Part shown: positions 7,488 through 39,960 of the stretch, one piece after another
Layout: the number at the start of each line of letters is the position of its first letter
How positions within the stretch are numbered: position 1 is the stretch's first letter
Assembly (NCBI RefSeq): GCF_001941975.2
Contig: NZ_CP146991.1
Span: 2,280,524-2,344,523, forward strand
Length of the DNA: 64,000 nt
Origin: Sporomusa sphaeroides DSM 2875
GTDB taxonomy: Bacteria > Bacillota > Negativicutes > Sporomusales > Sporomusaceae
Direction of reading: 5' to 3'
Notes under the pieces: model-generated
Database searches by the model: none
What the model was told of the DNA's origin: nothing
The model's input: only the letters and a program-made list of their open reading frames with translations
Program-made: the position numbers and the translations under genes

Positions 7488-8586
7488 CTCGTCCCTCCCG
7501 TCCGGTTATATAGCCGCTTAGTAATAAATCGGCACCTATTGACCGGGTCGCAATATCTTCAAGCATAATGCACTGGTCCACAGCGTCTGCGCCCGTACCA
7601 CCCACCGGAGTTGGCGCTGTTTTGCCGCCAATTATTTTAGGAGCGATAAAGCAGTGTACTTTATCAATAAGATTGGCAGCCAAAACCGACGCATTAATGG
7701 TTGCGCCGCCTTCCACCAGGATACTGGTAATACGGCGTTCTGCCAGCAGCTTAAAAAGCTGCTGTAAATTAACGCCCTGCGGTGTTTTTTCCAGCAGGAG
7801 CACCTCTACCCCCCGGCTGCGCAGCGCAGCTACCCGCTCTGCCGGCGCTTGGGCGCTGGCGGCAATAATGGTAGCTGCTTGTCTGTCTGTCACTACTTTA
7901 GCGGTTAGTGGCGTACATGCCATACTGTCCACAATAATCCTTACCGGATTTTTGCCGTTTTCCGGCAAGCGGGTGGTTAACTCCGGGTTATCGGCCAGCA
8001 CAGTGCCAATACCTACCAGTATTCCATCATGGGTGTCCCTGAGTGTATGAACATATTCCCTGGCTGCTGCACCGGTTATCCATTTGGAATGACCAGTGTG
8101 AGCAGCAATTTTGCCATCAAGCGACATGGCGGTTTTGAGAACACCAAAAGGCATTCCCGTAGATACCCATTTGATAAATACTTCATTAAGCCTGGCTGCT
8201 TCGGCGGCAAGTACGCCTTCAATCACTTCAATCCCGGCTGCTCTGAGGCGTTTAAGGCCGTTGCCGGCTACCAGCGGGTTTGGGTCAGTCATAGCGACGA
8301 CTACTTTCTTAACTGCCGCTTGAATTAACGCATCGGCGCAAGGACCGGTGCGTCCATGATGCGAACACGGTTCAAGTGTTACATATACTGTTGCCTCTTT
8401 GGCCAGTTCGCCAGCCTGGGACAAAGCATGAATTTCCGCATGGGGTGTACCGGCCTGACGATGCCAGCCTTGACCGACGATCCGGCCGTCTTTTACAATA
8501 ACGGCGCCTACCAGTGGATTGGGGCTGGTTCTGCCTGCCGCATACTGTGCAATAGTCAATGCTTGACGCATATAATATTGATCCAT
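7450..8586 (-). CDS. ribD: Bifunctional riboflavin deaminase/reductase
   Basis: RibD carries out two successive steps on the pyrimidine intermediate. The deaminase domain (about residues 1-145) has HAEIHAL and PCSHHGRTGPC, the zinc ligands; the reductase domain (about 146-370) has GKIAAHTGHSKWI and LVEGGATINASV. The frame is open much further upstream, but those codons lie in the riboswitch and terminator. The ATG at 8586 has a GGAGGG ribosome binding site five nt away and gives the family opening MDQYYMRQALTIAQ. First gene of the operon. Confidence 0.96.
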   Translation of the reverse strand: MDQYYMRQALTIAQYAAGRTSPNPLVGAVIVKDGRIVGQGWHRQAGTPHAEIHALSQAGELAKEATVYVTLEPCSHHGRTGPCADALIQAAVKKVVVAMTDPNPLVAGNGLKRLRAAGIEVIEGVLAAEAARLNEVFIKWVSTGMPFGVLKTAMSLDGKIAAHTGHSKWITGAAAREYVHTLRDTHDGILVGIGTVLADNPELTTRLPENGKNPVRIIVDSMACTPLTAKVVTDRQAATIIAASAQAPAERVAALRSRGVEVLLLEKTPQGVNLQQLFKLLAERRITSILVEGGATINASVLAANLIDKVHCFIAPKIIGGKTAPTPVGGTGADAVDQCIMLEDIATRSIGADLLLSGYITGREGRDVYRTCGRIGES

Positions 8587-8643: not shown

Positions 8644-8680
8644 ATATCGGCAAATTGAAAATGCCGATTGGCTTAAATTA

Positions 8681-8812
8681 CGCCTTTTACCATCCAGACT
8701 ATACTGTCGGCTCCGGAATTTCACCGAATCAGCCGTAAAACGGCTCGCGGGCTATACCGCCGGTCAGGAATTAAAAGATTTCTCTTTTTCACCTTGCCCC
8801 AAAGGCTCATTA
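8681..8812 (-). promoter_or_regulatory. FMN riboswitch (RFN element)
   Basis: On the minus strand the conserved RFN blocks appear in order: GGGGCAAGGTGAAA, CCTGACCGGCGGTATAGCCC, GCGAGCC, GTGAAATTCCGGAGCCGACAG and AGTCTGGATGG. P1 is formed by AGCCTTT near 8806 and AAAGGC near 8683. It controls ribD-ribE-ribBA-ribH by transcription termination, judging from the hairpin that follows. A TATAAT (minus strand, just before P1) would place the start site inside P1 and is probably not the functional promoter. Confidence 0.95.
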
Positions 8813-8846
8813 TACAGTTGTGACCATAATGACTCTAGTGCTGCAT

Positions 8847-8987
8847 CCGGTGATAACATGAAGTATATCACCGGCCTTTTTGCCGCCAGACTTTGTTGTC
8901 GTCGCCTTACATATGTCCGATATGTGCGGCTCCTCCGCCGCGCCTGACAACAAAAATTCTCGGAGCTATACTCCATAACATCACCGG
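8847..8987. repeat. Imperfect-hairpin intergenic repeat, copy A
   Basis: A 141-bp element whose first and last ~21 bases are inverted repeats (CCGGTGAT...AGTATA, 4-5 mismatches). Its 49-bp core (8891-8939) matches 47 of 49 bases of the copy at 39388-39436 and contains the inner hairpin CATAT-GTCCG-ATATG. Inner arms TTGTTGTC and GACAACAA also pair. It lies between the rpe stop and the FMN riboswitch, so it is either read through in the rib leader or acts as a spacer or terminator. Confidence 0.7.
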
Positions 8988-9034
8988 ATACAACACTAGC
9001 TCCTATAATATGTTACCATTAAACGACAATATAA

Positions 9035-9691
9035 TCAAGTCCCGCGAATGGCATTAATTGCTTGCGGTATGTCGGGTGCGCCGTAAACCGCAGAACCGGC
9101 AACCAGAATGTTGGCACCGGCAGCTATTACCTGGCGGGCGGTAGCGGCATTGATACCACCGTCAACTTCAATATCGACGATAAGATTTCGTTCATCAAGC
9201 ATACTTTTTAACCGGGCGATTTTATCCACTGCGCTGGGTATGAACTTTTGTCCGCCAAATCCGGGATTAACACTCATAATCAGCAGCATATCGACATCGG
9301 CAAGCACTTCTTCCACTGCCGACAAGGGTGTTGACGGATTTAGTGAAACGCCTGCCTTTTTTCCCAGTTCTTTAATGGTTTGAATCAGCCGGTGCAAATG
9401 GGGGGCTGTTTCGGCGTGAACGGTAATAATATCGGCCCCTGCTCTGGCGAATGGCTCAATCAGGTCTTGCGGATTATTAACCATTAAGTGAACATCAAAC
9501 GGTAATGGGGTAACTTTGCGAATGGCAGCAACAACTGGTGCCCCAAAAGTCAGATTGGGAACAAAATGCCCATCCATTACATCAATGTGTACCCAGTCGG
9601 CACCTGCCTGCTCAATTTTAATTATTTCATCAGCCAACCGGGAAAAATCGGCCGATAGTATGGATGGAGCAATCTTGATTGTCTTCGTCAT
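9035..9691 (-). CDS. rpe: Ribulose-phosphate 3-epimerase
   Basis: Rpe interconverts ribulose 5-phosphate and xylulose 5-phosphate in the pentose phosphate pathway; ribulose 5-phosphate is also the substrate of RibB encoded downstream. The 218-aa TIM barrel shows [38 protein letters not shown] and DGGIN, which hold the metal-binding His and Asp residues. It is the last gene of the fhaA-pknB-rsgA-rpe unit and abuts rsgA with no gap. Confidence 0.97.
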
Positions 9692-17176: not shown

Positions 17177-17265
17177 ATATAACACTCCTGCTAAGCACTT
17201 AAATCTTTCATTCTGCTCCGGCATCCGCTTTTGCTAAAATTTAGCGTACAGGACGCATTTCCTTT

Positions 17266-17294
17266 ATTATACGCGATATTGCTGAGCTAGTCAA
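17266..17294 (-). promoter_or_regulatory. Near-consensus sigma-A promoter of the fhaA-...-rpe unit
   Basis: On the minus strand TTGACT (17289-17294), a 17-nt spacer and TATAAT (17266-17271) lie ~90 nt before the fhaA start. It falls immediately after the rlmN stop and probably drives all eight genes down to rpe. Confidence 0.85.
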
Positions 17295-17296
17295 AA

Positions 17297-18355
17297 TTAA
17301 CCATTATCTAAAATTATTTTGTGGCGCAATTGGCCGCAAGCGGCATCAATATCTGTTCCCATCTCGCGTCTGACAGTTACATTAATATGCTGCGCCTTTA
17401 ACAGTTGCTCAAATCTAACGACCTCAGCCGGCGAAGGACGGAGTAATCCCCGTTCAGGCACCGGGTTAATGGGAATTAGATTGACGTTAGCCAACCGACC
17501 TTTTAACAGAACCGCCAATTCGGCAGCCTGTGACGGCTGGTCATTAATGCCGGCAATCAAAGTATATTCATAAGTGGCACGTCTGCCTGTGGCAGCAGAA
17601 TAGCGGTCACCTGCCGCCAGCACTTGTTCGAGCGGATAACGCTTGTTAATCGGCATAAGTCTGGTTCGCAGTTCATTAGTAGGTGCATGTAATGAGATTG
17701 ACAGCGTGAGCGGTAATGATTCCTGGGATAATCTGTCAATTTCAGGAACAAGTCCGGAAGTTGACAAGGTTATACTGCGGTAACTCAGATTCAGGCAGTA
17801 GGCTTCATGGATAAGCCGAATAAAACGCAGCACGTTATCATAATTTGCCAAAGGCTCTCCTGAACCCATAATAACAATAGAGTCTACCTTTTGTTGTTCA
17901 AGTGTTAACAGTTCCTGGATATACAGCACCTGAGCGAGTATTTCTCCGCCGGTAAGGTTTCGGGCTAACCCTCCTAAGGTGGATGCACAAAAAGTACAGC
18001 CCATAGCACAGCCAACCTGAGTGGATATGCAAACGCTATTGCCATAAGGTTGACGCATAAGAACTGTTTCGACAGCCATATCATCAGGAAAGGCCAGCAA
18101 AAACTTGCTTGTCCGTCCATCGCCCGAGTGTTGAACCGCCTTTTGCCGAAGCTGGGTAATGGTAAATTGGTCATCAAGCTTAACTCGCTGGTCTTTAGAC
18201 AAATTAGTCATGGCGCTAAAGTCACGGACATTGTGTTTATACAACCATTCGGCAATTTGCCTGGCCCGGTATGTTTCTAATCCCAAAGGCCGTATGGCCT
18301 CTGCAATCTCAGCGGCAAACAGCCCGAACAATTCTAATTTTGCTGTAGTTGTCAT
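17297..18355 (-). CDS. rlmN: Dual-specificity 23S rRNA A2503 / tRNA A37 C2-methyltransferase
   Basis: RlmN is a radical SAM enzyme that methylates C2 of an adenosine using two catalytic cysteines. The radical SAM cluster motif CAMGCTFC lies near residue 115; MGSGEPLANYDNV, SLHAPTNELR and the late catalytic Cys in DIDAACGQL are also present. The length (352 aa) is normal. It is 13 nt downstream of rsmB. Confidence 0.97.
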   Translation of the reverse strand: MTTTAKLELFGLFAAEIAEAIRPLGLETYRARQIAEWLYKHNVRDFSAMTNLSKDQRVKLDDQFTITQLRQKAVQHSGDGRTSKFLLAFPDDMAVETVLMRQPYGNSVCISTQVGCAMGCTFCASTLGGLARNLTGGEILAQVLYIQELLTLEQQKVDSIVIMGSGEPLANYDNVLRFIRLIHEAYCLNLSYRSITLSTSGLVPEIDRLSQESLPLTLSISLHAPTNELRTRLMPINKRYPLEQVLAAGDRYSAATGRRATYEYTLIAGINDQPSQAAELAVLLKGRLANVNLIPINPVPERGLLRPSPAEVVRFEQLLKAQHINVTVRREMGTDIDAACGQLRHKIILDNG

Positions 18356-26344: not shown

Positions 26345-26456
26345 TCACTCCCATCTTGCGGTTTATCCGCCGGAATTGGCACCGTTTTTAGTAAAACTAC
26401 TAAATGGTTGCCGCGGTTTCATCGGGCCAGTCCCTCCACCAACTCTTGATGAGTAT
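26345..26456 (-). promoter_or_regulatory. SAM-I (S-box) riboswitch
   Basis: The minus strand carries the S-box core: ATCAAGAG, GGTGGAGGGACTGGCCC, GATGAAACCGCGGCAACC, GGTGCCAATTCC and the closing GATGGGAG that pairs with ACTCATC to form P1. A terminator follows, so SAM should shut off metK. A likely promoter (TATACT at about 26450-26455 on the minus strand, with T-rich -35 candidates) lies directly before P1. Confidence 0.95.
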
Positions 26457-39330: not shown

Positions 39331-39495
39331 TAGTAGTCTACCAAGCCTAAATCCATAGTTGTTCTTGTAGCGATATTTTCCGCCCAACTTCGTTGTCGTC
39401 ACCTTACATATGTCCGATATGTGCGGCTCCTCCGCCTTGCTGGACGAAAAATCTCGCGCAATTCATCCTATAGCTTTAAACTTGGCAGACTACTA
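39331..39495. repeat. Imperfect-hairpin intergenic repeat, copy B
   Basis: A 165-bp element bounded by TAGTAGTCTACCAAG (39331-39345) and CTTGGCAGACTACTA (39481-39495), inverted repeats with one mismatch. The core 39388-39436 matches copy A at 47 of 49 bases, including the CATAT-GTCCG-ATATG hairpin. Arms TTCGT/ACGAA pair here, where copy A has TTTGTTGTC/GACAACAAA. Its outer end supplies the lspA stop codon (CTA, 39493-39495). It separates lspA from rluD. Confidence 0.72.
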
Positions 39496-39960
39496 GTTTT
39501 CTTGGTATTCTGCCGGAAAGGGTATAAATACAAGGGTATATATAACACAGCCAACCCCTGTGACAATGGCAATATCGGCCACATTAAACACCGGCCATAT
39601 GCGAAAATCAAAAAAATCCACCACATACCCGGTCTGTACCCGATCAATTACATTGCCGAGAGCGCCACTTGCCAAGAGACTGACTCCCAGCCGCATAAGA
39701 CGGAAGTTATCCGGGATATGGGAAAAAAAGTAGGTAATCAGTCCTAACATAACCAGCGCAATTACAATAAAAAACAACCGCTGGTTTTCCAAAATCCCAA
39801 ATGCGGCACCTGGATTCAGGACATAGGTAATGTGAAACATATTTTCAATTACCGGTATGGACATTCCCGGCAACATCTGGGACTGAATATAATGCTTTGA
39901 CCACTGGTCAATTATGACTACTGCCACAGCAATGGCTGCAAGTAATACTCTAGGCACCAA
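39493..39960 (-). CDS. lspA: Prolipoprotein signal peptidase II
   Basis: LspA cleaves lipoprotein signal peptides after diacylglyceryl transfer. The 155-aa polytopic protein shows IDQWSKHYI, the catalytic Asp motifs GALGNVIDRV near residue 103 and FNVADIAIVTG near 128, and four membrane segments. The start is TTG at 39960 or GTG three bases later; both follow GGAGAG. A 10-bp GC-rich hairpin lies in the leader (40025-40053). The TAG stop is part of the terminal repeat of element B. Confidence 0.94.
   Translation of the reverse strand: MVPRVLLAAIAVAVVIIDQWSKHYIQSQMLPGMSIPVIENMFHITYVLNPGAAFGILENQRLFFIVIALVMLGLITYFFSHIPDNFRLMRLGVSLLASGALGNVIDRVQTGYVVDFFDFRIWPVFNVADIAIVTGVGCVIYTLVFIPFPAEYQEN

Follow-up and report, generated by a model that had tools for sequence, protein, structure and literature searches.

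Two hairpin repeats in the window

The window analysed here, a stretch of 64,000 nucleotides from a genome of the genus Sporomusa (G000, 5.0 Mb), holds two copies of one hairpin repeat. Copy A lies at 8836–8998, between rpe, encoding ribulose-phosphate 3-epimerase (9035–9691, minus strand; Pfam PF00834, E 5.9e-86), and the FMN riboswitch preceding ribD (8678–8810, minus strand; Rfam RF00050, 105.9 bits), which is outside the element. From TA to TA the whole element measures 163 bp. Its limits, with TAGTGCTGCATCC at 8836 on one side and ACACTA up to 8998 on the other, were placed by end-finding over 128 copies together with the hairpin fold, the flanks and the TAGTRSY start at 8836. The minus strand is the better-folding one and is called R here, the other strand being F. 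The conserved apex of copy A occupies 8895–8939 (minus strand) and reads on R GGCGGAGGAG, inner hairpin, CGACGACAAC, as supported by two alignments (A1 and A2), by pair counts and by a match of the covariance model R1 (G000:C1:2289401-2289482).

Copy B spans 39331–39495 (165 bp, minus strand) between the signal peptidase II gene lspA (39493–39960, minus strand; Pfam PF01252) and a pseudouridine synthase gene with an S4 domain. Its arms belong to a different subfamily from those of copy A, and its apex is the same (39392–39436, minus strand; model R1 match G000:C1:2319898-2319979; alignment A1). The lspA reading frame ends at 39493, and the end of copy B supplies its stop codon within the last three bases of the element (39493–39495); the frame encodes 158 aa here compared with 160–162 aa in eight congeners. 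On a rough map, several further copies in this genome start no more than 2–3 bases from the end of the upstream gene. The window also contains a SAM riboswitch (26348–26455, minus strand; RF00162, 78.5 bits), which is unrelated to the hairpin repeat.

An earlier note on this DNA had described an imperfect palindrome with a core recurring at 39388–39436, and both are present. The core match is non-random, as a 15-base piece with two mismatches allowed gave two matches in the window where 0.14 were expected. The palindrome is real, but the 141 bp assigned to it form only the inner part of a 163-bp hairpin (8836–8998). The proposed inner arms, TTTGTTGTC/GACAACAAA, turned out to be a register peculiar to copy A: the family-wide fold puts GTTGTCGTC in the conserved apex and pairs GACAACAAA with TTTTGCCGCC, some of these pairs being minus-strand wobbles according to a hand reading of alignment rows. 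The outer repeats of the two copies are indeed unrelated, the arms coming, by eye, from different subfamilies.

Copy number, anatomy and mobility of the family

Further copies, which the earlier note had named as a point to check, exist in the genome. A search with the 141-bp palindrome locates the core 27 times (E≤2e-4), and model R1, which covers the inner 82 positions, gives 29 matches at the cut-off used for genome counts (E≤1e-3). The same model finds 45 and 32 matches in two relatives (G006 and G009), as well as 109 in G035 and 136 in G052, both of which belong to a different family; the best matches alone were listed individually, and weak ones may represent a related repeat also found by R1. 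A sequence match to the element is present in 16 of 60 genomes, the source genome included. The copy set comprises 128 copies (47 of 57 plus 81 of 91 model matches), 22 of them from G000, with weak, opposite-strand, inserted-tip and related-repeat matches left out. The end, cluster and flank analyses each keep 119 of these copies by slightly different end filters, and the flank analysis then uses 109 non-tandem copies, or 97 by the strict choice. A predicted open reading frame spans just one of the 128 copies, so that placement is almost wholly intergenic.

The copies fold into one long hairpin, which the flanks join in some predicted folds. Length is nearly constant, with 163 bp in 69 and 164 bp in 16 of the 119 end-filtered copies. 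Nine copies scored as 158 bp belong to one subfamily that was anchored five or six bases short at TAGTAGTC ends, and these were re-anchored for the flank count alone. At 80% identity the 119 copies form 23 clusters, and the mean identity between cluster representatives is 0.79 in the apex versus 0.56 in the outer arms. The consensuses of the seven largest clusters (at least six copies each) are 163 or 164 nt long, carry the apex at 57–105 or 58–106, and have very similar predicted structures. The ends are TAGTR..YACTA, and the sequence beyond TAGTR varies between subfamilies.

On R, the apex consists of GGCGGAGGA, a variable inner hairpin and GACGACAAC. GGAGGA stands opposite GACGAC, an arrangement in which two tandem pairs of G.A and A.G could stack on either side of a G-C; the F strand has T.C mismatches at the tandem G.A positions. 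Among 41 aligned sequences, A.G occurs in 41 and 40 at two positions and G.A in 34 and 35 at two others, and several of the remaining cells hold A.A. The tandem pairs would be of the sheared type.

Some copies depart from this plan. Five in G000 (L028–L032, near 1041, 593, 220, 607 and 4592 kb) carry a similar extra 65–75 bases within one side of the apex, and L091 in G006 has a different enlargement. One copy (L108, near 7904–7985) is chimeric by eye, with the left arm as in L114 and the right arm like another subfamily, as if two elements had recombined via the common apex. A second short repeat with GGGAACCGCTGATTTA ends (L114, near 17205–17529; L108, 7736–8057; L109, 3725–3886 and 5028–5250) has an inner helix resembling that of the element and is weakly matched by model R1; it is possibly a distant relation of the element, with a tip and ends of its own. 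A further distant relative (L072 in G001, about 1479–1560), just upstream of a sulfatase-domain gene, has an inner hairpin that pairs perfectly but lacks recognised TAGT ends.

In all eight other Sporomusa genomes the genes flanking copies A and B are the same and the element is missing at both sites, which argues that the element family is mobile. We consider this conclusion well supported. In a comparison by hand, rejoining the flanks of copy A or copy B gives a site whose length is off from that of the empty sites by roughly one base or more. A different short repeat carries the element at one and the same position in G035 and G052, and two uninterrupted copies of that host repeat (L109) have the length of the interrupted one after removal of both the element and one TA(G), with junctions placed by hand. 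In a stretch syntenic between G052 and G035 (pieces 87–96% identical), two full copies in one species face a short palindromic remnant in the other; one such remnant is CTAGTAAAGCACTAG. A tandem array in G006 contains two copies with one CTAG in common, and four further loci show tandem spacing of about 162 bp.

TA flanks 79 of the 109 non-tandem copies on the left and 83 on the right. On the F strand, C precedes in 66 copies and G follows in 87; written on this strand, the preferred target is YTAG, near CTAG. A TA duplication, a TAG duplication and no duplication with a target-like end are indistinguishable from the junctions compared, and both window sites misfit to the base. Mini-palindromes of 40–71 bp have the element ends without the apex (L102 at G000:C1:1477899-1477945 and 1479039-1479077, L034, L103, and L057 at 2139-2209) and are probably deletion remnants. 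We had taken tip-less short copies (L034, L036, L102, L103) as a sign that the ends suffice, and withdrew this reading because direct repeats in the arms could recreate the same deletion.

Compensatory change and strand preference

Alignment A1 was made without structure, the tested structure itself being drawn from the same sequences; A2 is its R-strand counterpart. Each holds 41 of 56 tip matches, with identical or near-identical sequences (L010, L016, L019, L021, L024, L050, L052), the inserted-tip copies L028–L032, and L059, L070 and L072 omitted. Arm pairing, whose retention across copies had been a stated concern of the earlier note, proved to be kept through compensatory change: both partners have changed in 13 of 26 pairs on A1 and in 12 on A2, values reached by none of 500 shuffles in either case. 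When pair partners are slid along A1, the number falls to 3–5. The inner stem shows the pair variants GCC/GGC, GGC/GCC, AGC/GCT and GGT/ACC. Counts of further pair types are unexceptional on A1 (34 of 500 shuffles as high), whereas none of 500 shuffles is as high on the R strand.

The pairing is better on R than on F. Paired cells amount to 92.6% on R versus 88.8% on F. One pair reads GU in 29 rows, AU in 10 and GC in 2 on R, which leaves 29 unpaired cells on F; in the reverse case, one tested pair is unpaired on R in 40 of 41 rows. Over 49 copies (counted without L028–L032, L059, L072 and exact repeats) the arms contain 253 wobbles of R type versus 78 of F type. Cluster weighting gives 118:30; R leads in 22 of the 23 clusters, and the remaining one is tied. 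The excess persists at the far ends of the arms, where the ratio is 51.8:14.2. The predicted folding energy, calculated with RNA parameters, is lower for R than for F in 117 of 119 copies.

The wobbles differ between shared and private changes. In the seven clusters with at least six copies, which include 100 of the 119 copies, the cluster consensuses have R- and F-type wobbles in a ratio of 34:3, whereas single-copy private mutations at paired sites give 48:39 (Fisher p 5e-5). The clusters share ancestry, and the 34 consensus wobbles fall on 18 distinct positions, one of them common to all seven. A host function of the folded strand in inserted copies, or a mutational bias behind the wobbles, would be expected to leave an equal asymmetry among private mutations. 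Private mutations that are nearly symmetric beside biased consensuses suggest that the strand preference belongs to the multiplying lineages; for the same reason, a mutational strand bias is insufficient as the source of the wobbles. Strand-specific folding thus seems to be selected during multiplication of the element and not after insertion. The private-mutation rate is 0.0163 in the apex versus 0.0234 in the arms (p 0.0035), a difference that carries no reading of selection either way because copies were picked by apex score. The strand asymmetry fits single-stranded DNA and RNA alike and does not separate them.

Taken together, the many copies, the empty sites in congeners, the pairing kept despite sequence change and the strand-specific folding bear out the earlier view of a structured mobile or RNA element instead of a simple duplication. 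The repeat is genuine, a strand-specific hairpin of the general MITE/REPIN type whose conservation pattern is unusual. We found no description of this hairpin family in the open-licence literature of PubMed Central, which does not by itself prove novelty.

Possible routes of multiplication

We slightly favour the reading of the element as an "inside-out REPIN", a non-autonomous repeat of about 163 bp that is almost wholly one hairpin and is mobilised as a folded single strand. Single-strand mobilisation as such is moderately supported. What is recognised and moved would be a self-folded R strand, most likely in the form of single-stranded DNA exposed during replication or repair. A transposase acting in trans would bind the apex, with its tandem G.A pairs around the variable inner hairpin, and would cleave at the base of the hairpin, at TA, a nearly fixed distance from the apex. 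Arm sequence would be free to drift provided that pairing and length were kept. Inserted copies would have no particular host role and would decay, sometimes losing their interior. A folded R strand as the substrate would explain why the arms drift yet stay paired and constant in length, why pairing is selected on one strand and why no direction is fixed. The kept apex and free ends, together with the contrast between consensus and private changes, point to one-strand folding as a requirement for multiplication.

As mobilising enzymes, Y1 transposases come to mind first, although no finding connects them with the element. Genes with PF01797 occur in all 16 element-bearing genomes versus 30 of 44 genomes without the element (Fisher p 0.013, uncorrected for genome size and kinship). 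Inspection of five Y1 genes, namely two of three in G000, two of 11 in G006 and one of three in G009, showed none with the element at its flanks; at L130, some 3 kb and other open reading frames separate the copy from the Y1 gene of that locus. IS200/IS605 elements are expected to show a replication-strand bias, and we considered such a bias as a mark of single-stranded DNA transposition. There was none in G009 (P 0.98), in G006 (P 0.40; 16 listed of 45 matches) or in G000 (P 0.07). The count in G000 depends on where the terminus is placed: 20 of 27 copies share one replication strand for a terminus at 2.1–2.25 Mb, and 17 of 27 for one opposite dnaA. The bias was therefore dropped as support.

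The comparison closest at hand is with REPINs, which are described in PMC3116915 as short, non-autonomous intergenic inverted repeats predicted to form a hairpin in single-stranded DNA or mRNA, with compensatory changes and with length and hairpin capacity kept. Like REP sequences and REPINs with their RAYT, our element folds as a single-stranded hairpin with compensatory changes. The conservation is turned around, however: the REPIN ends are conserved 16-mers around a varying inside (PMC3116915), whereas our element keeps its apex and varies its ends. It is also about twice as long, the first residues of the 16-mers in GI REPINs being 71 bp apart in the same source (PMC3116915), and it does not flank the five Y1 genes inspected. 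We have not filed it as a REPIN because we looked for conserved REP ends and, at the five Y1 genes inspected, for a flanked RAYT, and found neither. CGTC-tagged REPs, according to PMC3733652, have 8–9 bp stems starting with A/T pairs and CCA-like tails and come from five phyla, among which Firmicutes are absent. They resemble our element in the unpaired CGTC directly before a small hairpin (in the apex, on the F strand) and in having no repeat-flanked transposase (PMC3733652); the inner stem of our element mostly starts with G/C pairs instead, and its tail is TCC (TCCTCC).

Further parallels are looser. Bcr1 of the Bacillus cereus group is 147 or 167 bp long, with 11 to 130 copies per strain, a predicted common structure and mobile features (PMC6542083; PMC2267715). 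Compared by description, it differs from our element in that its mobility is tied to TTTAT motifs and the B. cereus group is its sole range (PMC6542083; PMC2267715). Efa-1 of Enterococcus faecalis, with 163 bp and a predicted pair of adjacent stem-loops (PMC2267715), resembles our element in length alone. Integron attC sites provide another case in which one strand folds as the substrate and structure is kept over sequence, with conserved ends, a variable tip and an integrase that inserts them. Our element has the opposite arrangement, a kept apex with variable ends and TA at the ends, and its TAGTR..YACTA ends are unlike the attC boxes.

The main competing reading would be a simple TA-target MITE, in which a duplex is moved by a DDE transposase via its terminal inverted repeats, the hairpin being a by-product and the apex a passenger. 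TA-target MITEs such as RUP with IS630-Spn1 and Correia/NEMIS are of a similar size class, with TA ends, terminal inverted repeats, intergenic positions and no genes; our element differs from RUP and Correia/NEMIS in its arm subfamilies with unrelated ends, its conserved apex, its strand-specific pairing and its near-fixed length. RUP is named in a table of PMC2267715. The TA on both sides of our element, at a target near CTAG, is what a DDE double-strand transposase leaves. The terminal 12-mers are nearly perfectly inverted in many copies, the sites are intergenic and include another repeat, and short tip-less derivatives keep the same ends, which recurrent deletion between short arm repeats could also yield. 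Against these points, conservation is reversed, with ends varying beyond TAGTR and an interior apex kept, the consensuses show strand-specific wobble, and the target flanks are asymmetric about the element (28 versus 10 of 97 copies, p 0.005, the copies not being independent). Moreover, in a search limited to this DDE family, PF13358 (IS630-type, DDE_3) was found in three of six element-bearing genomes and not in G035, G052 and G045. Solo element ends in the examined loci gave nine matches, none paired at an IS-like distance, and three genes between or beside copies, considered as an autonomous partner, were ordinary ones (2-hydroxyacid dehydrogenase, M29 peptidase and sulfatase). On this evidence we regard the MITE reading as unlikely, at somewhat more than one chance in four.

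Less probable still, and improbable by our estimate, is a structured host RNA, regulating mRNA processing, stability or termination, that spread by duplication or transposition. The R-strand structure with its wobbles and an internal-loop motif of a kind known from RNA would suit it, as would the flanking genes in G000, which run mostly along R (34 sides versus 9 over 22 copies). The ratio of gene sides along and against R is 8:24 in G035 and 28:34 in G052, however, and there is no overall orientation rule. A fixed orientation relative to genes, raised in the earlier note, was not found among the 128 copies, where both flanking genes, taken as longest-ORF guesses, run along R in 50 cases and against it in 40, with 23 divergent, 7 convergent and 8 incomplete. 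A smaller count of 56 copies is mixed likewise (27 same/same, 13 opposite/opposite). This mixture speaks against a cis-acting RNA, as do the empty sites in congeners and private mutations almost without strand preference against the host RNA reading at large. Comparison with Rfam 15 gave no match at or above a family's gathering score for the element, either in the window or at 14 further loci; a MAT2A_B match at the edge of the L062 element scores 22.6 bits, below the cut-off of 45.

For the FMN operon in particular, a cis-regulatory RNA was ruled out by the empty site in all eight congeners and the unfixed orientation, and a host RNA function at this site is unlikely. The special weight that had been given to the place before the riboswitch operon is not borne out, as intergenic contexts are varied, and the position appears to be without special meaning. 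A bidirectional terminator was ruled out by inspection: T precedes and A follows the P1 helix on either strand, so no U-run comes after the stem.

Mobility via an RNA copy of the R strand, with reverse transcription of the structured RNA into TA sites, would share the strand-specific pairing, in which RNA tolerates G.U wobbles well, and the lack of replichore bias, but we consider it very improbable since single-stranded DNA accounts for the same facts using known kinds of enzyme.

Bacterial genomes often carry small palindromic repeats, most of which move by routes that are not yet known, and the present family offers a way into that question. The apex also occurs beyond the genus. In even phylum samples, model R1 at E≤1e-6, with filters that lose weak matches, matched 9 of 299 genomes, our own included, and the exact two-strand apex motif occurred in 7 of 398 genomes, again with our own, compared with none for a reversed control pattern. 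At five distant loci found by the model in the phylum or class, GTTGTCGTC and TCCTCCGCCT (F strand) are intact in all five, and the inner hairpin is different. Distant members found via the motif letters keep these letters by construction; their inner hairpins differ yet pair. The ends of some distant members are very unlike TAGTR (GTGGGGCGGCTCATCG, CTTAGGACTTGTAC, GGAACTGT), so what the members have in common is the apex and not the ends. The apex thus occurs sporadically across the phylum, in other families too, in hairpins with unrelated ends, and repeats that would otherwise pass as separate may depend on a single recognition module. A wider proposal would be that of phylum-wide "inside-out" hairpin transposons, with the G.A apex recognised, the ends set by distance from it and one machinery moving hairpins with unrelated ends; the enzyme would be a single-strand transposase, or there would be an RNA-dependent route, undescribed for such elements. 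We put this forward tentatively, as possible yet rather doubtful. Similarity searches of a plasmid collection gave no match to the element, and a search of phages gave just short weak matches. Among seven motif stretches in viral contigs, three (L220–L222) lack such a hairpin and look coding by eye, and they were set aside, whereas the other four carry a hairpin with inverted ends of 160–167 bp.
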